Source: Desulfovibrio sp. (lineage in GTDB: Bacteria > Desulfobacterota > Desulfovibrionia > Desulfovibrionales > Desulfovibrionaceae). Taken from it: a stretch of DNA of 64,000 nt. Within the stretch, counting starts at the first letter, position 1, and the number at the start of each line of letters is the position of its first letter. The notes under the pieces are model-generated. The model had not been told where the DNA came from. It ran no database searches and saw only the letters and a list, made by a program, of their open reading frames with translations. This document shows positions 1,637 to 9,128 of the stretch, in pieces. The position numbers and the translations under genes were made by a program. Location: assembly GCA_016208105.1 (NCBI GenBank), contig JACQYS010000012.1:1-64000 (forward strand). The letters are read 5' to 3'.

Positions 1637-3694
1637 TCAGCTCTGCCGCACCCAATCAAGGCAGGCTTCGATGACGCGATCCTGCGCCTGACGCCCAAGC
1701 CCGGGATAACACGGCAGGCTGGTCACTTGGCTGGTGGCGGCTTCAGCATTGGGGCACGGCCGGGTCAAGGATCGTGCGGCCAAGTAACTGTGACGATGCA
1801 GCGCGAGAGGATAATGCACGCCGGTGTCGATCCCGGCGGCAGCCATGTGACTGCGGAACCGCTCGCGATCCGCCACCCGGACAACGTAGAGATGAGGTGC
1901 CCGCCCCGGCAGCGTGGGCACGGGCTGTAAAGCGCCCAATGCTTCGTCGTACCTGCGGGCGATTTCCTTACGTTGCTGGTTCTGCCCAACCAGTATCTTG
2001 AGCTTTTCCGACAGCAGCGCTGCTTGCATTTCATCGAGGCGCGAGTTGATGCCCAGATCCACGCATTCGCCGAAGTCATCCTGCCCATAAAAGCGCATGC
2101 GCCTGATCCGTCGGGCCACATCCTCGTCTGCCGTGGCCACAACCCCACCATCACCAAACCCCCCAAGGTTCTTGGTCGGATAAAAGCTGAACGCCGAGAA
2201 GTGTCCCAGACTCCCGCAGGGTTTGCCTTCAAAGAAGCTCCCTGAAGACTGGGCGCAGTCTTCGATAACCATCAGCCCCATCTCCCGCGAGAGTGCCAGG
2301 ATGAACTTCATGTCGCAGGGATTGCCGTACAGGTGCACGGGGATGACCGCCTTAAGTCCGGGAGGCGCAGCTTGTTTCAACCCTTGCGGATCAAGGGTCA
2401 GAGTGTCCGGATTCACATCCAGGAACCAGGGGCGGCAGCCCGCGCGCAGAACGGCGACTGCCGTGGCTGGCGCACTGATGGCTGGCACGGCCACCACGTC
2501 ACCATCGCCCAGCCCAGCAGCCCAGAGCGCCAGGGTCAGTGCGTCGGTGCCGTTGGCCACTCCCACCGCATGCGTCAGGCCAAGCTGGGCGGCGAAGACG
2601 GTTTCGAATCTCTCCACCTCCGGCCCTAGAATGAGCGCATTGGAATCCAAGACGCGCCCGGCGCTTTCGGCCAGCGAGCCGCGCACAGGGGCGGAGATGG
2701 CCACGGAATCGAACAGCGCCACCCGGCCTGTATCGAAGGTTTGAGGAGCATGCCCTCCCAGTCGCTTGTCCACGATGAACAGCGGTCTTTTGCGCACCTG
2801 CTCCAACGTGTTCCAAAGATAGGCGCCGATGACTCCTAACCCGCCCATGGAAGTGGACAGCATTACGAGCTGGACGCACATGAGCGACGTCCAGCCCTGC
2901 TGCTCCACCCCCCCGAAGGCCCATGCGCACAAAACGACCAGGATGTATGCTAGGCTCGCAGCCATAAGCGCCGCGCCCGTCACAAGCAGCCCCTTGAGCG
3001 GCAGCGCCGAGAAACTGACGATGGAGTTCACCGCATAATCGAGCTTACGGGTGAAGGTCCACATACTGCGCCCCACTGGTCGTTTGGCCCGGTCGAAGGA
3101 CACCACGGCCCGCTCGAAGCCGCTCCAGAGGATCAGTCCCACTAGGCTCGACTGTTTCTCCGAACTTTGGAGAAGCACCTCCACCACCTGTCTGTCGATC
3201 AGGCACAGGTCGAAGCCACCCACGGGCATCTGGGACATCACGGCCTTGCGAAACAACCAGTTGAACGCCCTGGAAAAAAGCTGGCTCAGAAAGGGATCGT
3301 CCCGAGTGCGCCGCACGCCAAGTACCACCTTGGCACCCTCGCGCCATTTGCTGATAAGTTCGGGAATTATCTCCGGCGGGTCCTGCAGGTCGGCGGCGAT
3401 AATACACGTGGCGTCGTGGTCCCGGACTTCATTGATCCCGGCGGTGATGGCCACGAAGGAACCATGGTTACGCGAGAGCAGGAGCACCCGAACCCTGGAG
3501 TCGCCGGCAGCGAGTTCCTCCAGGACGGCTTGGCTGTTGTCCGGAGAACGGTCGTTGACATACTGGATGGTCAGTTCCGCCGGGAAGTCTCTGGTCGCGT
3601 CGAGAATGCGCTGGTGGAGCGTGCGCAGGGTGGGTTCATTGCCGTAAACCGGCACCACCACGGCAAGACGGCAAGGATTTAAACCGTGGGACAT
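1637..3694 (-). CDS. Fusion of GtrB/ArnC-like GT2 glycosyltransferase with DegT/DnrJ/EryC1 aminotransferase
   Basis: The 685-residue protein has two modules in one uninterrupted frame. Residues 10-310 are a DPM1/GtrB/ArnC-type GT2 domain with VVVPVYGNE near the start, an acidic ADLQD motif around 101-105 and two membrane segments at about 233-260 and 272-293. Such enzymes load a sugar from its nucleotide onto undecaprenyl phosphate. Residues 330-685 are a PLP-dependent sugar aminotransferase with EDCAQSSG near 478 and the Schiff-base lysine K508 in SFYPTKNLGG. The ATG at 3694 follows GGAAGG and overlaps the acetyltransferase gene by 16 bases. The two activities are normally separate proteins. 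I infer coupled amino-sugar synthesis and lipid loading. Confidence 0.85.
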   Translation of the reverse strand: MSHGLNPCRLAVVVPVYGNEPTLRTLHQRILDATRDFPAELTIQYVNDRSPDNSQAVLEELAAGDSRVRVLLLSRNHGSFVAITAGINEVRDHDATCIIAADLQDPPEIIPELISKWREGAKVVLGVRRTRDDPFLSQLFSRAFNWLFRKAVMSQMPVGGFDLCLIDRQVVEVLLQSSEKQSSLVGLILWSGFERAVVSFDRAKRPVGRSMWTFTRKLDYAVNSIVSFSALPLKGLLVTGAALMAASLAYILVVLCAWAFGGVEQQGWTSLMCVQLVMLSTSMGGLGVIGAYLWNTLEQVRKRPLFIVDKRLGGHAPQTFDTGRVALFDSVAISAPVRGSLAESAGRVLDSNALILGPEVERFETVFAAQLGLTHAVGVANGTDALTLALWAAGLGDGDVVAVPAISAPATAVAVLRAGCRPWFLDVNPDTLTLDPQGLKQAAPPGLKAVIPVHLYGNPCDMKFILALSREMGLMVIEDCAQSSGSFFEGKPCGSLGHFSAFSFYPTKNLGGFGDGGVVATADEDVARRIRRMRFYGQDDFGECVDLGINSRLDEMQAALLSEKLKILVGQNQQRKEIARRYDEALGALQPVPTLPGRAPHLYVVRVADRERFRSHMAAAGIDTGVHYPLALHRHSYLAARSLTRPCPNAEAATSQVTSLPCYPGLGRQAQDRVIEACLDWVRQS

Positions 3695-4248
3695 TGCATT
3701 CCTTCCGATGGCTGACTGCCTTGCCAGCCGCCCTGAGGACAGCGCCATGCGCCAGGGGCGCCTTCCAGAACCGCCCCGCAGACGCAGACCAGCCCTTTGG
3801 GCACGGCTGGGTTTCCCAGCACAAGGGTGAAGGGAGGAACATCCTTGGTTACCACCGCGCCCGCGCCCACCATGGCATGGTGGCCGATCACGATCCCGGG
3901 CAGAATCACCGCGCCCGCACCAATGCTACACCCTCGGCGCAGCACGGTCCGAAGGGAGGGTTTATATCGTTTTGAACGAGGGTGTTTGTCGTTGGCGAAC
4001 ACGGCGGAGGGGCCTATGAACACGTGATCTTCCACGCGCAGGCCGTCCCAGAGGGATACGTGGGTCTTCACAGTGACTCCATCACCCAGAACCACGTCGT
4101 TCTCCACGAAGCAGTGGTCGCAGATGTTGGCCTGACGGCCGATCACCGCACCGGGCAGCACATGGGCGAAAGCCCATATCCGCGAACCTTCCCCGACCTT
4201 AAGGCTTTCACACACCCCGAGCGGATGCACATAAACGTCTTGGTTCAC
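3679..4248 (-). CDS. Sugar N-acyltransferase, left-handed beta-helix (WbpD/FdtC-like)
   Basis: The protein has 189 aa built of hexapeptide repeats ([LIV]-G-x4) across residues 15-150. The VEDHVFIGPSAVFANDKHPR segment is characteristic of the WbpD/WlbB/FdtC group, which acetylates a 3-amino sugar on a nucleotide carrier with acetyl-CoA. The C-terminal tail has CVCG and a later CPQGG, like the small cysteine-bearing tail of that group. It starts with GTG inside the stop of the upstream epimerase gene (4-base GTGA overlap). Pairing with the DegT-type aminotransferase downstream fits: amination followed by acetylation of one sugar. The exact sugar cannot be read from sequence. Confidence 0.85.
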   Translation of the reverse strand: MNQDVYVHPLGVCESLKVGEGSRIWAFAHVLPGAVIGRQANICDHCFVENDVVLGDGVTVKTHVSLWDGLRVEDHVFIGPSAVFANDKHPRSKRYKPSLRTVLRRGCSIGAGAVILPGIVIGHHAMVGAGAVVTKDVPPFTLVLGNPAVPKGLVCVCGAVLEGAPGAWRCPQGGWQGSQPSEGMQCPTV

Positions 4249-5267
4249 CAGTAGTGCTCCCTGTGCATCCGGTAGTAATCCAATGTCCGGGCCACGCCCT
4301 GCTCCAAGGAGATCCGGGGCCGCCAGCCGGTCATTTTGTTAATCTTCGTGATGTCTGAAAAGAAATCCCCGGGCTCCTGCGCCTTGCGTTCAGCGCTGAA
4401 TGGGGTGAGCTGCCACCGTGTCTTGGTGTTTCCGGTAATCATCTGGGCAAGCTCAAGAAACGAAGAGGGCTGGTCATGGCCTACATTGAATGTCTCGCCC
4501 ACCACTTCAGGCGTAACCGCCAGGGAGAGCAGTGCGTCCACGCAGTCGTCAACGTACAGGAAGTCGCGTTTAATGAGGCCATCGCCAAAGACGGGAATGG
4601 TTTTGCCTTCAAGAGCCAAGCGCATGAACCAGTTGGCCACTCCAAACTGGTTGTTACGCATCTGTGCCCTGGGTCCGTAAATGTTGGTGAGACGGGCCAG
4701 GACGCAGGCGATCCCGTGGTTGCGATGGTAGGAAGCCATGATGTGCTCGGCCGCCAGCAGAGATATTTCGTAGATCCCTTTAGGCTGACAAGGACTATCC
4801 TCGGTAGCGGGAAGTTTCAGCACCGGGCCGTACTGTCCCCGCGAGCCGAGTTTCACTACCTTGGCTTTGGGATTGTGCTTGCGCAACGCCTCCATAAGAA
4901 CGGCCGTACCGGTGATATTTATGTCGATATCCGGGAAGGGATCGGTCAGGCTCTTCAAATGGCAGACCTGGGCTGCCGAGTGAAAGACATAGTCCTGGTC
5001 TTTGACAAGGCAGGATATGGCCGCACGGTCGCGGATATCGCAATAATTGATGCGGATTTTGTCCAGTATGGAGCTGACATTGAACGGATTGCCTCCGTAC
5101 TCTTCTATCATGGCATCCACCAGGGTGATTTGGGCGCCAAACTGTGCGAGTCGTAATGCAAGACTCGACCCAAGAAAACCCAATCCACCCAGGATGAGAA
5201 CGTGCTTCCCCGAAAACACATCAGAAAAAACAAGAGAAGGAGGCGACTTAGGGAGAATTTGCTTCAT
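4245..5267 (-). CDS. NAD-dependent epimerase/dehydratase (extended SDR)
   Basis: About 340 aa. The N-terminal Rossmann motif is GGLGFLGSSLA (GxxGxxG), and the region LTNIYGPRAQ followed by VFGDG is typical of nucleotide-sugar epimerases and dehydratases. The catalytic YxxxK motif reads YEISL: the tyrosine is present but leucine replaces lysine, confirmed on the nucleotides (CTG). Activity may therefore be altered. It is the first gene of the operon that continues with the acetyltransferase and the GT2-aminotransferase fusion. Start is uncertain: ATG at 5267 or GTG at 5282, neither with a convincing ribosome-binding site. Confidence 0.8.
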   Translation of the reverse strand: MKQILPKSPPSLVFSDVFSGKHVLILGGLGFLGSSLALRLAQFGAQITLVDAMIEEYGGNPFNVSSILDKIRINYCDIRDRAAISCLVKDQDYVFHSAAQVCHLKSLTDPFPDIDINITGTAVLMEALRKHNPKAKVVKLGSRGQYGPVLKLPATEDSPCQPKGIYEISLLAAEHIMASYHRNHGIACVLARLTNIYGPRAQMRNNQFGVANWFMRLALEGKTIPVFGDGLIKRDFLYVDDCVDALLSLAVTPEVVGETFNVGHDQPSSFLELAQMITGNTKTRWQLTPFSAERKAQEPGDFFSDITKINKMTGWRPRISLEQGVARTLDYYRMHREHYW

Positions 5268-5282
5268 AGATGCGTTGAACAC

Positions 5283-5590
5283 GATTTTATGTGAACTCTA
5301 AACAGGCTGGACTGTCGGTTCTTATTTGAACGGTTACTTCCCCTCGTTCGGAGTGACAGCGGAACCCAAGAGAAGTGGAATCGCCCCAAATCTAAGTTAA
5401 CGAATCGCATCAAAAAAGTCCAGGAAAGACGGCGCCGGACGCGAGGGTCCTCCCGACAGAAAAAGACCCGGGCCGGAAACGAACCCCAGAGACCCAGCCT
5501 GGAAATATCCGGACTAAACGCGTAGCAAAGCAGAGAACAGTGACTTCCATGGCCGGGCTGCATGACCCGCTTAGGCAGAGGAGGCCATAT
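5283..5590. other. Intergenic region without a supported gene
   Basis: About 300 bases between the small minus-strand gene and the epimerase gene. Short open frames exist on the minus strand, but they have low-complexity, arginine-rich translations and no ribosome-binding site. The region probably contains the promoter of the sugar operon, but I cannot identify one with confidence. No JUMPstart/ops element was seen. Confidence 0.4.
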
Positions 5591-5836
5591 TTACCGACCA
5601 TGAATGGACTGCCTATTCCTCAGTCTCTCGATGGTCCGCACGCAGGTCAGCTTTTCCCAGCCATAGTAGGTGTTGATGGATTCCTTGCCTGACTTCTCAG
5701 TAACACGCAGGAATTCCTCACCCAGAAACAAAGTGGCCTGTTCGTAGACCTTGCCCTCGTTGATTTGTATCTTGAGGCCCTTGCGCAGTTTACGCGAAAG
5801 CGTGCCGTGAACCGGCATGGACGCGTACTCGAACAC
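5591..5836 (-). CDS. Small conserved-looking protein with an in-frame stop just upstream
   Basis: The open frame gives up to 81 aa (MFEYASMPVHGTLSRKLRKG...), rich in charged residues and with no membrane segment or known domain. A strong ribosome-binding site (AAGGAG) precedes an ATG at 5860 in the same frame. That frame reads MTKATWE and then meets a TAA at 5837-5839, followed directly by the GTG at 5836. Either the gene starts at this GTG, or at ATG 5818, after a seven-codon leader. Alternatively it is a longer gene broken by one nonsense codon. Function is unknown. Confidence 0.5.
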   Translation of the reverse strand: MFEYASMPVHGTLSRKLRKGLKIQINEGKVYEQATLFLGEEFLRVTEKSGKESINTYYGWEKLTCVRTIERLRNRQSIHGR

Positions 5837-6037
5837 TTATTCCCATGTAGCCTTGGTCATTATTCTCTCCTTATTAAGAACTATTCGTTAACCACACCCT
5901 AGCGAGGCCTGTCCGCAAAATTCATCGTTTTTTACAATTTTAGTAATCTTCGTCCCTCTCATCCCAGGGATGGACTCATTGCTTGATGTGGGATATTCGG
6001 CGCGGACAAAGAAATCCCCCGCAAGGAGCGCACGCAT

Positions 6038-6532
6038 ATGGTTCTGATGGAAACCTCCATGGGCCTTATCACCATTGAGCTTTATCCCGACAAAGCCCCG
6101 GCCACTGTGGCCAACTTCCTGAAATACGTAGATGACGGTTTCTACGAGGGCACCATTTTCCACAGGGTCATCGAGAATTTCATGATCCAGGGCGGCGGCA
6201 TGAACGCCACCATGAAAGAAAAGCCCACCAACGCCCCGGTCATCAACGAAGCGGACAATGGCCTGCAAAACCTCACCGGCACTATTGCCATGGCCCGCAC
6301 CATGGACCCCCACAGCGCCACCGCCCAGTTTTTCATTAACGTGACCGACAACGCCTTCCTGGACCACAAGTCCAAGACACCCGACGGTTGGGGATACTGC
6401 GTGTTCGGTAAGGTGGTGGACGGCATGGACGTGGTGAACAAGATCCGCAAGGTCCGCACCCGCCGCGCCGGCTTCCATGACGACGTGCCCGTGGACCCGG
6501 TGACCATCAACAGCTGCCTGCGCGAGGAATAA
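6038..6532 (+). CDS. ppiB: Cyclophilin-type peptidyl-prolyl cis-trans isomerase
   Basis: A 164-aa single-domain cyclophilin that catalyses isomerisation of proline peptide bonds. Family signatures are [15 protein letters not shown] (active-site Arg and the FMIQGG core) and [11 protein letters not shown]. There is no signal peptide, so it is cytoplasmic, and its length is normal for bacterial PpiB. The ATG at 6038 is preceded by AAGGAG. It is the first gene of a compact plus-strand run continuing with a carboxymuconolactone-decarboxylase-like gene and cobA-hemD. Confidence 0.95.
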
Positions 6533-6538
6533 TCGCGC

Positions 6539-6913
6539 GTGGACGGTGATCGCATCGAAAAGGGCCGGGACATCCTGGCCCGGCTCGATACCGGCAACGA
6601 AGAGCGTCTGCGTGCCATGTTCGAGGATGTGGCCCCGGGCATGACGGACATCATCCTGGGCTTTTTCGGCGACGTCTACGCAAGACCAGGGTTGTCCATT
6701 CGCGACAGAATGCTGGTGACCCTATCGGCCATAGCCGCTCTTGGGCATGCCCAGCCACAACTGGCCGCCCATGTGCGCAACGCCCTGAACATCGGCCTTA
6801 CTCCTGAGGAGATCGCGGAAATCTTCATGCAGATCGCCGGGTACGCCGGATTCCCGGCTTCGCTCAACGCCCTGGCCACTGCCAAAGCAGTGTTCGAGCA
6901 GGACAAACGCTAA
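6539..6913 (+). CDS. Carboxymuconolactone decarboxylase (CMD/AhpD-like) family protein
   Basis: The 124-aa all-helical protein carries the CMD-domain pattern RDRMLVTLSAIAALGHAQPQ followed by HVRNALNIGLTPEEIAEIF. It has no cysteine at all, so it cannot be an AhpD-type CxxC peroxidase and belongs with the non-redox members. Substrate is unknown. It starts with GTG at 6539, seven bases after the cyclophilin stop, with GAGGA upstream. Co-transcription with ppiB and cobA-hemD is likely from spacing. Confidence 0.8.
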   Translation: MDGDRIEKGRDILARLDTGNEERLRAMFEDVAPGMTDIILGFFGDVYARPGLSIRDRMLVTLSAIAALGHAQPQLAAHVRNALNIGLTPEEIAEIFMQIAGYAGFPASLNALATAKAVFEQDKR

Positions 6914-6933
6914 CCGCTTCAAGGCTTACACAT

Positions 6934-8451
6934 ATGCCCAACGTCTACCTCATCGGCGCGGGACCCGGCGACCCGGGACTTATCACTTTAAAAGCCAAGC
7001 ACGTGTTGGAGACCGCCGATGTGCTGGTCTACGACTATCTTGCCAACAAGGCCTTTCTGGACTTTAGGCGCCCCGACGCCGAGGTCATCTACGTGGGCAA
7101 GAAGGGCGGAGACCACACCCTGGCCCAGGGCGACATCAACAAGCTCCTGGTGGCCAAGGCCAAAGAAGGCAAGGTGGTGGCCCGCCTCAAGGGTGGAGAT
7201 CCCTATGTGTTCGGCCGCGGTGCGGAAGAAGCCGAGGAATTGTTGGAAGAAGGGCTCACCTTCGAAGTAATCCCTGGCGTGACCAGCGCCGTGGCTGCCC
7301 CGGCCTATGCCGGCATACCCATCACCCACCGTAAGTTCGCCTCCTCCGTAAGCTTCATCACCGGCCACGAAGACCCCACCAAGGACGAATCCGCCCACAA
7401 CTGGCCAGCCCTGGCCCAGGCTGCGTCCACTTTGATTTTCTTCATGGGGGTTAAGAACCTGCCCGACATTTCCCGACGTCTCATCGAAGGCGGACGCGAC
7501 CCCAAGACCCCGGCAGCCTTGGTGCGCTGGGGCACCACGTGCCACCATCGGTCCATGGTCTCCACCCTGGCGGATATTCCCCGGGATGCCAAGGAGCAAG
7601 GATTCAAGTCTCCTTCGTTGCTGGTGGTTGGAGACGTTGTGCAACTGCACGACAAGCTCAACTGGTTCGAAAAGCGCCCCTTGCTGGGCAAAGGTGTGGT
7701 GGTCACCCGTTCACGCGAACAGGCCAGCGATCTGGTACGGACCCTCGCGGACATGGGCGCCTGCACCTGGGAGTATCCCACCATTGACGTTGTTCCCCTG
7801 GTGGATACCACGCCCGTGCGTGAAGCGGCAGGCAGGCTCGCCTGCTTCGACTGGATCGTCTTCACGTCGGTCAATGGGGTCAAATACTTCTGGCACGAGC
7901 TTTCTGCCATGGGCTTGGACGCGCGGGCCTTCGGCAGCCTCAAGGTGGCGGCCATCGGACCGGCCACCGCCCAAGCCCTTGCCGAACGTGGCATCAGGGC
8001 CGACTTTGTCCCCGAGAAGTACATCGCCGAGTCCGTGGTGGAAGGTCTTCTGGCCCTGCAGATAGGCGGCAAGAAGGTGCTCATACCCCGCGCCGCGCAG
8101 GCCAGGGAAGTGTTGCCCGAGGAGCTGTCCCGGGCCGGTGCCCAGGTGGAGGTGCTGCCGGTCTATGAGACCAAGCTGGCCGAGCAGGATCCTGACGAGG
8201 TTATCGCGGCCATAGAGGAAGGCGAGATCCACTATCTCACCTTCACCAGCTCCTCCACAGTAGACAATTTTTTCCAAATGATCCCAGCCACACGTCTGGC
8301 CCCGCTACGCACCAAAGTGAAGATCGCCTGTATCGGGCCCATCACATCGGCCACGCTTAAGAAGCACGGTTTCGAGCCCGACATCCAGCCCGAGGCCTAT
8401 ACCATCCCGGCCCTGGCTGCGGCCTTGGCCCGAACAGCGTCAGAGGTCTGA
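6934..8451 (+). CDS. cobA-hemD: Uroporphyrinogen-III C-methyltransferase / uroporphyrinogen-III synthase fusion
   Basis: The 505-aa protein has two enzymes in series. Residues 1-245 are the SUMT/CobA methyltransferase, with the glycine-rich GAGPGDPGLITLKA and PGVTSAVAAPAYAGIPITHR motifs. It makes precorrin-2 from uroporphyrinogen III using SAM. Residues about 250-505 are HemD, which closes and inverts the D ring of hydroxymethylbilane, with YLTFTSSSTVDNFF near the C-terminus. The fusion feeds precorrin-2 to siroheme, heme (via the Ahb route encoded at 34.8-39.9 kb) and cobalamin (genes at 49.6-53.8 kb). The ATG at 6934 is 20 bases after the preceding gene. Confidence 0.95.
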   Translation: MPNVYLIGAGPGDPGLITLKAKHVLETADVLVYDYLANKAFLDFRRPDAEVIYVGKKGGDHTLAQGDINKLLVAKAKEGKVVARLKGGDPYVFGRGAEEAEELLEEGLTFEVIPGVTSAVAAPAYAGIPITHRKFASSVSFITGHEDPTKDESAHNWPALAQAASTLIFFMGVKNLPDISRRLIEGGRDPKTPAALVRWGTTCHHRSMVSTLADIPRDAKEQGFKSPSLLVVGDVVQLHDKLNWFEKRPLLGKGVVVTRSREQASDLVRTLADMGACTWEYPTIDVVPLVDTTPVREAAGRLACFDWIVFTSVNGVKYFWHELSAMGLDARAFGSLKVAAIGPATAQALAERGIRADFVPEKYIAESVVEGLLALQIGGKKVLIPRAAQAREVLPEELSRAGAQVEVLPVYETKLAEQDPDEVIAAIEEGEIHYLTFTSSSTVDNFFQMIPATRLAPLRTKVKIACIGPITSATLKKHGFEPDIQPEAYTIPALAAALARTASEV

Positions 8452-8453
8452 TC

Positions 8454-9128
8454 GTGGGGCTTCCCATCGCCGTTCTGGTGTCCGGCTCAGGATCGAACCT
8501 GCAGGCCATAATCGACCATATCGAGGCCGGCGTTCTGGAGGCGAAGATCGTCCTGGTGCTTTCCAACAAGCCTGACGCCTACAGCCTGGAGCGGGCCAAG
8601 AACCACAATCTCCCGCACATCTGCATACCACACGCGGAGTATCCTGACCGCCTGGAGTTCGACCGGGCCATGATTCGGGCCATCACGGAAGCTGGAGCCC
8701 AGGCCGTGGTGCTGGCGGGGTTCATGCGCATGCTCTCCGGCGAATTCCTGAGCGCTTTCCACGGGCGAGTGATAAACGTTCATCCCGCCCTGCTGCCAAG
8801 CTTTGCCGGCGTGCACGGACAACGTGACGCCGCGGAGTATGGCGTAACCGTCTCTGGATGCACCGTTCACTTCGTGGACGAGCTCATGGACCATGGCCCG
8901 GTGATCGTCCAAGCGGTTGTCCCGGCCTACCCAGATGACGACGAACACTCCCTGGGCAACCGCATCCTCAAATTCGAACACCGCGTTCTGCCCCAGGCCC
9001 TCCAGTGGCTGGCCACCGACCGCATTCGACTCGAAGGCCGCAAGGTGCGCATCCTGCCCGCAAAAGTCCCCCTGGCAGGGGCTCTTGACTGCGCCCTCGT
9101 CAATCCTCCCCTGGAACAGGGGTTTTAA
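8454..9128 (+). CDS. purN: Phosphoribosylglycinamide formyltransferase
   Basis: A 224-aa GART enzyme of purine synthesis: 10-formyl-tetrahydrofolate plus GAR gives FGAR. Visible motifs are SGSGSNLQAIID at the N-terminus (phosphate loop), NVHPALLPSF with the catalytic His, and FVDELMDHGPVI with the catalytic Asp. Length is normal. The start is GTG at 8454, two bases after the cobA-hemD stop, with GAGG just upstream, so it is translated from the same message. Confidence 0.95.
   Translation: MGLPIAVLVSGSGSNLQAIIDHIEAGVLEAKIVLVLSNKPDAYSLERAKNHNLPHICIPHAEYPDRLEFDRAMIRAITEAGAQAVVLAGFMRMLSGEFLSAFHGRVINVHPALLPSFAGVHGQRDAAEYGVTVSGCTVHFVDELMDHGPVIVQAVVPAYPDDDEHSLGNRILKFEHRVLPQALQWLATDRIRLEGRKVRILPAKVPLAGALDCALVNPPLEQGF

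Follow-up and report, generated by a model that had tools for sequence, protein, structure and literature searches.

Several known systems provide points of comparison for the locus examined here. The WxcM-like/FdtD bifunctional ketoisomerase-acetyltransferase (PDB: 4MZU), named in a reference of PMC8040287, also fuses two steps of one acetamido-sugar pathway, but it joins a ketoisomerase to an acetyltransferase and lacks a membrane glycosyltransferase, unlike the GT2-DegT fusion described below. In three-component glycosylation, represented by the pentofuranose systems of PMC11127046, a lipid-linked donor synthase, a flippase and a GT-C transferase are encoded alongside an accessory enzyme that modifies the sugar. 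In those systems this enzyme is a free-standing short-chain dehydrogenase-like protein (SDR), whereas in the fusion the sugar-modifying enzyme is part of the synthase. Both functions, accompanied by an acetyltransferase of the same type, also occur in split operons of the order DegT / GT2 / GtrA / WxcM-like (HEX+FdtA) in Actinomycetota and others, and an Azospirillum plasmid carries GT2, WxcM-like and DegT genes consecutively. In both cases, however, the functions reside in separate genes.

The window, by which we mean the whole 64,000-nucleotide stretch of DNA that was analysed, carries instead a single open frame at 1637–3694, on the minus strand like all window features given below, which encodes a GT2-DegT fusion protein of 685 amino acids (evidence: ORF, Pfam, relatives and model). 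A preliminary description of this DNA had read it as a GtrB/ArnC-type GT2 with two membrane segments, joined to a complete DegT/EryC1 aminotransferase with the PLP lysine K508 and preceded directly by an acetyltransferase gene with a 16-base overlap. The ORF translation and the Pfam domains of both halves bear this out, as do the best PDB matches and the two helices of the model for the first half, the near-full profile and invariant K508 for the second, and the overlap, which lies at 3679–3694. The frame starts with the ATG at 3692–3694; another ATG further upstream would give 703 amino acids, and the shorter start was used because conservation with the relatives begins there.

In Pfam, Glycos_transf_2 covers residues 12–138 (66.7 bits, cut-off 23.3) and DegT_DnrJ_EryC1 covers residues 344–677 (318.8 bits, cut-off 19.8), the latter over profile positions 10–358 of 360. 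The structure model was built from 85 sequences, has a mean pLDDT of 92.9 and replaced a 5-sequence model with a mean pLDDT of 54. On the basis of Pfam and PDB sequence matches, residues 1–312 (2759–3694) form a GT2 domain of the GtrB/ArnC-type polyprenyl-phosphate glycosyltransferases, in which the model places two membrane helices, at residues 231–259 (2918–3004) and 268–301 (2792–2893). The hydropathy profile has three hydrophobic stretches within 225–289 and a borderline fourth one at 398–416, inside the DegT half. A linker of about residues 313–325 (2720–2758), which is poorly conserved in the alignment and has low pLDDT at 317–319, leads to the DegT/DnrJ/EryC1/StrS aminotransferase domain, assigned from Pfam and from sequence and fold matches to residues 326–685 (360 amino acids; 1640–2719). 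The codon of K508, at 2171–2173, was located by motif alignment and by its invariance; the lysine lies within FSFYPTKNLG, which aligns to the same motif in DesV.

The best PDB sequence matches of the GT2 half are GtrB (sll0501; 5EKP, 5EKE) and ArnC, which align over residues 9–310 and to which the model corresponds in having the membrane helices after the catalytic domain. With a catalytic domain above the family cut-off and C-terminal membrane helices behind it, this half is a predicted member of the GtrB/ArnC/DPMS group. The GtrB and ArnC chains in the PDB (322–363 amino acids) stop at this point, whereas the fusion continues with the 360-residue aminotransferase. In the fold search of the model, aminotransferase folds occupy the best 50 rows of each list, none of which informs on the GT2 half.

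For the DegT half, the best PDB sequence matches are the sugar transaminase 7B0D, DesV, WbpE and QdtB. The 15 best structural matches have Z scores of 50.5–53.3 and include DesV, QdtB, WlaRF/WlaRG with TDP-Qui3N, WbpE and Pcryo_0616, while GDP-perosamine synthase (Z 49.1) and ArnB (Z about 47) are found lower. The structure titles of QdtB, WlaRF/WlaRG and Pcryo_0616 name 3-amino sugars; some of the top 15 rows, among them 7B0D and 4QGR, have titles without a substrate. DesV and WbpE aminate the C3 position, perosamine synthase and ArnB the C4 position. The nearest solved relatives of the DegT half are thus C3-aminating enzymes, about 1.4 Z above the C4 enzymes, and amination is most likely at C3 rather than C4, a preference that rests on similarity and on this gap of about 1.4 Z. 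QdtB, WbpE, DesV and WlaRF/WlaRG share with the DegT half the fold (Z 50.5–52.5), the region around the PLP lysine and the NSRLD motif; their solved chains are single-domain, whereas the DegT half is joined to a membrane glycosyltransferase.

Among the matches listed, the fusion was found in seven genomes, six of Desulfovibrionaceae and one Nitrospinota MAG. Six of the 288 genomes in the family search carry it among the matches listed, namely five of the seven of the genus (G000–G004, G000 being the window's own genome) and one of another genus (G289), and it was not found in the genus members G005 (96% complete) and G006 (66% complete). The class search returned the same six carriers (6/348 genomes), and in a phylum-wide draw of 345 genomes the window's own genome was the sole match at an E value of 1e-90 or better, in both cases among the matches listed. 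The Nitrospinota MAG (G643, locus L048) is the one genome with the fusion out of 24 of its phylum. Since the ranked match lists were bounded by E-value and length, with only some candidates scored per genome, weak or unrelated GT2-DegT fusions may have been missed. As full-length copies recur in four other genomes of the genus (56–58% identity, among the matches listed), the frame is not a product of chance.

A scan of the species-genome collection, which could recover only loci matching either of two short peptides exactly, gave 49 GT loci, which represent part of the family. Three of these are fused (L048, L049 and L051, where L051 appears to be G001 and L049 to be G289), one (L050) has GT, SDR and HEX without DegT, and 20 have a separate DegT gene nearby. 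The remaining 25 are weaker GT matches, of which L078 has an opposite-strand DegT gene nearby and 24 show none. An earlier pattern scan of genome contigs, with a single-protein query, had given 12 pattern matches, none of them a relative. Two further candidates, G258 and G369, aligned across both halves but proved to be two abutting in-frame genes separated by a stop. At L125:7310-9499 and L133:5459-7690 the GT2 and DegT genes abut in-frame with a stop codon (TAG and TGA, respectively) between them.

The order GT2-DegT is thus kept in seven genomes, and the junction is open, with no stop, in 7/7. The preliminary description had named an artefact or a frameshift in the region 2700–2740, and split homologues with a stop at the junction in close relatives, as points that would count against a fusion; the former is ruled out by the open junction in seven genomes, and none of the latter is seen among the seven carriers. 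An assembly or sequencing artefact joining two genes could be suspected from the fact that the window starts at a contig end, 1.6 kb from the fusion gene, but the presence of this open junction in seven separate genomes, with the other six proteins 55–58% identical to that of the window, reduces its probability to a negligible level. The fusion is genuine and, although rare, has stayed intact in some related bacteria. In the literature searched, at the level of titles and abstract openings and with few subscription papers, no description of a GT2-DegT fusion was found, and "undescribed" is therefore provisional. Each part is known in itself, and it is their combination in a single protein, conserved across two genera and in a MAG of another phylum, that is provisionally new.

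We also considered whether both halves are maintained as enzymes. All 19 hand-picked active-site positions, twelve in the aminotransferase and seven in the glycosyltransferase, are invariant in 7/7 carriers; they include T383, D384, E478, D479, Q482, S503, K508, N550 and R552 of the DegT half, and D48, D102, Q104, D105, R128, R205 and S210 of the GT2 half, the latter invariant also in four unfused relatives. Besides the PLP lysine K508, these DegT residues include D479 and Q482, the Asp and Gln at the PLP ring. The dN/dS ratios were obtained for five of the seven carriers (G000, G001, G003, G004 and G289). In the closest pair, G001 and G004, the GT half has a ratio of 0.084 and the DegT half one of 0.181; for G003 and G289 the values are 0.078 and 0.108. 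More distant pairs reach 0.36, and their dS is often saturated or greater than 1. As judged from these alignments, purifying selection acts on both halves in these five carriers. Some members of the aminotransferase fold perform other chemistry or none, and the DegT half might accordingly be a non-catalytic scaffold or regulator. The nine invariant DegT residues, K508 among them, and the low dN/dS make this very improbable.

Directly upstream of the fusion, at 3679–4248, lies the gene of a 189-residue left-handed beta-helix sugar N-acetyltransferase of the WlbB/WxcM-N type (HEX), assigned from Pfam and PDB matches. Its best PDB matches are the N-acetyltransferase 7S43/7S3U, the WxcM-like protein 4MZU and the WlbB-type 3MQG. 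HEX, GT2 and DegT are contiguous in 7/7 carriers, and HEX overlaps the fusion by 16, 16, 16, 16, 11, 7 and 7 bases with the starts used here.

That the two steps normally reside in separate proteins, as the preliminary description had it, holds for the relatives found. In G011, of the same family, SDR, HEX, DegT and GT are four separate genes, and of the 20 of 49 GT loci in which a DegT gene of its own lies near the GT, which are in other phyla, 18 also have HEX. These split homologues are more distant (GT about 36–42% identity), so the unfused arrangement lies outside the group and does not point to a frameshift in the window. Three of the 18 HEX proteins beside split DegT-GT pairs were checked, and 3/3 have a PF05523 (FdtA) ketoisomerase domain, which is absent from the HEX of the window; two small neighbours of split pairs that were checked are both GtrA-type. 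An SDR is seen near the 20 split loci as a single match, of 26%, in L066. Because the split pairs sit with HEX+FdtA, GtrA-type and WxcM-like genes, they suggest a path in which an acetamido sugar is made and finally placed on a lipid carrier.

From homology and gene order, we consider it probable, although well short of certain, that the fusion is a bifunctional membrane enzyme that makes an acetamido sugar and loads it, with HEX acting between the two steps. The route that we infer, from the substrates and the C3 position to the acetylation in the middle, the undecaprenyl phosphate acceptor, the role of D2 (see below) and the channelling, would run as follows. The cytosolic DegT half, using PLP at K508 and an amino donor, would convert an NDP-keto-sugar to a 3-amino nucleotide sugar (C3 being the most likely position), and HEX, translated from the overlapping upstream frame, would N-acetylate the new amine. 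The GT2 half, held by its membrane helices, would then transfer the acetamido sugar from the NDP-linked form to undecaprenyl phosphate, and, once flipped, the lipid-linked sugar would serve a GT-C-type membrane transferase, possibly D2, as donor for the decoration of a glycan or protein at the surface. The fusion would thereby keep steps one and three at the membrane, around the middle enzyme HEX. The gene order agrees both with tethering at the membrane and with an acetyltransferase that would act in between. The locus offers a natural test of whether nucleotide-sugar synthesis and membrane loading are physically coupled: with the first and last of three steps in one polypeptide, channelling through HEX becomes measurable by comparing the fused and the cut enzyme.

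It is important to note that three genomes of genus g25 (G030, G286 and G294) have a GT at 55–58% identity that stops close to the junction and is not followed by a DegT, while the order SDR-HEX-GT is kept. The missing DegT half reflects domain loss or a pre-fusion state and is no sequencing slip, and fusion in cis is therefore not required everywhere. These three relatives, with SDR-HEX-GT and no DegT, would also suit a scenario in which the DegT half serves a different glycan and is fused for co-expression only, the GT2 half loading an unrelated sugar. However, the pair are also separate neighbours in G011 and in the 20 loci of other phyla, and co-expression needs no fusion, as the HEX and fusion frames already overlap; we regard this scenario as unlikely. 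An unfused SDR-HEX-GT cluster, corresponding to the G030 copy, is present on the 132,673-base plasmid pDCAR1 of Solidesulfovibrio carbinolicus (L140, NZ_CP026539.1 59750-76679), close to genes for an IS5 transposase, a recombinase and TraK.

A quick 65-row tree, from which four duplicates and one distant match had been removed beforehand, groups the fused DegT halves in a single clade (SH-aLRT 100), and the fusion therefore probably arose once, as far as this phylogeny goes. The GT tree was built after removal of L135, which duplicates L048, and of five distant GT rows. It places the unfused g25 proteins of G030, G286 and G294 among the fused ones, so that two changes are needed. A single fused clade is absent from the best GT tree, and it is not rejected either (AU p = 0.121). 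The simplest scenario is a single fusion with a single later loss, while G030, G286 and G294 may represent the pre-fusion state. The tree relationships disagree with the genera in that G003 pairs with G289, and this pairing suggests transfer between genera.

We now turn to the source of the keto sugar. An extended short-chain dehydrogenase-like protein of up to 345 amino acids (4245–5282, with a later start possible at 5267) overlaps the start of HEX by 4 bases. This SDR stands directly before HEX in five of the seven carriers (G000, G002, G003, G289 and L048); in G001 and G004, D1, D2 and a third gene (PF03706 in G001) separate the two, the SDR being some 3.5 kb upstream. In place of the YxxxK motif it has Y171-x-x-x-L175, and the corresponding YEISL is found in 10/10 genomes, the seven fused and the three GT-only ones, with YEIST in G011 and YELSS in G656. 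When aligned to GalE- and RmlB-type structures, the Lys is replaced by Leu and the Asp-Glu of the 4,6-dehydratases by Arg-Gly. In related SDRs beside the DegT genes of four other loci (L028, L128, L130 and L132) the Tyr is replaced by Asn. C3-type aminotransferases thus seem to be accompanied by SDRs whose active sites are altered.

The FdtA ketoisomerase (PF05523) was not found in five of the seven carrier genomes (G001, G002, G003, G004 and G643). It is present in G000, in another cluster, and in G289. The G000 cluster (L126:6084-10267, contig C20) comprises FdtA, an NDP-hexose 2,3-dehydratase, a Gfo/Idh/MocA protein and a DegT, and is a separate path, probably for a deoxy-amino sugar. All four g25 genomes examined (G289, G030, G286 and G294) have FdtA, whether fused or not, and its presence therefore does not explain the missing DegT half. 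Because FdtA is not found in most carriers, this system cannot be assumed to follow the known dTDP-3-keto route, and because FdtA/QdtA is not found in 5/7 we do not assign the system to the dTDP-Qui3NAc/dTDP-Fuc3NAc (Qdt/Fdt) pathway. The upstream SDR is a candidate for the source of the keto sugar. Few carriers with FdtA, together with an SDR lacking the lysine, point to a keto-sugar route that lacks an assigned enzyme.

These observations bear on another option, namely that the sugar is built on the lipid, with the GT2 half first loading a common sugar that SDR, the DegT half and HEX then oxidise, aminate and acetylate. This would explain an aminotransferase tied to a membrane enzyme, the FdtA not found in 5/7 carriers and the changed active site of the SDR. 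No aminotransferase is known to act on a lipid-linked sugar. Modification of sugars at this stage does occur, as ArnD deformylates Und-P-Ara4FN. Likewise, DprE1/DprE2 convert decaprenyl-phosphoryl-ribose, according to PMC11127046. On the other hand, the solved DegT relatives are titled with nucleotide-sugar ligands (TDP-Qui3N, TDP-3-aminoquinovose), and the split counterparts resemble an ordinary nucleotide-sugar operon. In addition, the Pcryo_0638/0637 aminotransferase-acetyltransferase pair uses UDP-sugars according to PMC8040287, although it is a C4 pair and not among the closest relatives. Taken together, we find building on the lipid rather improbable. Assembly of the amino sugar at the membrane, possibly on undecaprenyl phosphate, with the GT2 half loading a precursor, the YxxxL SDR with its rebuilt active site introducing the keto group independently of FdtA, and the tethered DegT half and HEX finishing, is in our estimate a speculative proposal with a low chance of being correct; if true, it would mean an aminotransferase acting on a lipid-linked sugar. 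Synthesis of the acetamido sugar at the nucleotide level, followed by loading, is the reading that we consider probable.

Finally, we consider the genes on the other side of the fusion. D1 (1077–1655) is a small protein with no Pfam match, conserved beside D2 in the carriers; the listed frame starts with TTG at 1655, and this start is provisional. D2 (113–1096) is a membrane protein with no Pfam match, and is a candidate GT-C transferase by its position and hydrophobic look. With regard to the flippase and GT-C transferase of the three-component systems, the fusion cluster shows the conserved membrane protein D2, which has no family match, and in G001 a PF03706 protein between D2 and HEX; the window contig ends beyond D2. 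Matches of D1 and D2 lie near the cluster in the six Desulfovibrionaceae carriers, and no match was found in the 9.5 kb that make up L048. In the window D2 has 327 amino acids, compared to the 482–530 called in the five other Desulfovibrionaceae carriers. Its alignment breaks off at about residue 320, a short distance from position 1, where the contig ends, and the window D2 may be broken or the contig end wrong.

A few minor features of the surroundings were also observed. The D1 of G003 matches in two successive frames (L044:15189-15754) and looks frameshifted, with ORFs beside it that appear transposase-like by eye. Judged by eye from the ORF lists, the cluster seems to occupy the same chromosomal site in G000 (window 4245–9128) and G002 (L045:1692-8577), with shared flanks of peptidyl-prolyl isomerase-like, cobA/hemD-like and PurN-like genes, and D1-D2 are on opposite sides of SDR-HEX-fusion in the two genomes. 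A B12-binding radical SAM protein is encoded near the cluster in six of the ten relatives examined (L042:5017-6483, L043:12413-13879, L046:10397-11866, L121:6204-7655, L122:2389-3873 and L124:2-1021). The L042 copy has BchE/HpnJ-like scores below the cut-offs, and the other copies look similar at the N-terminus.
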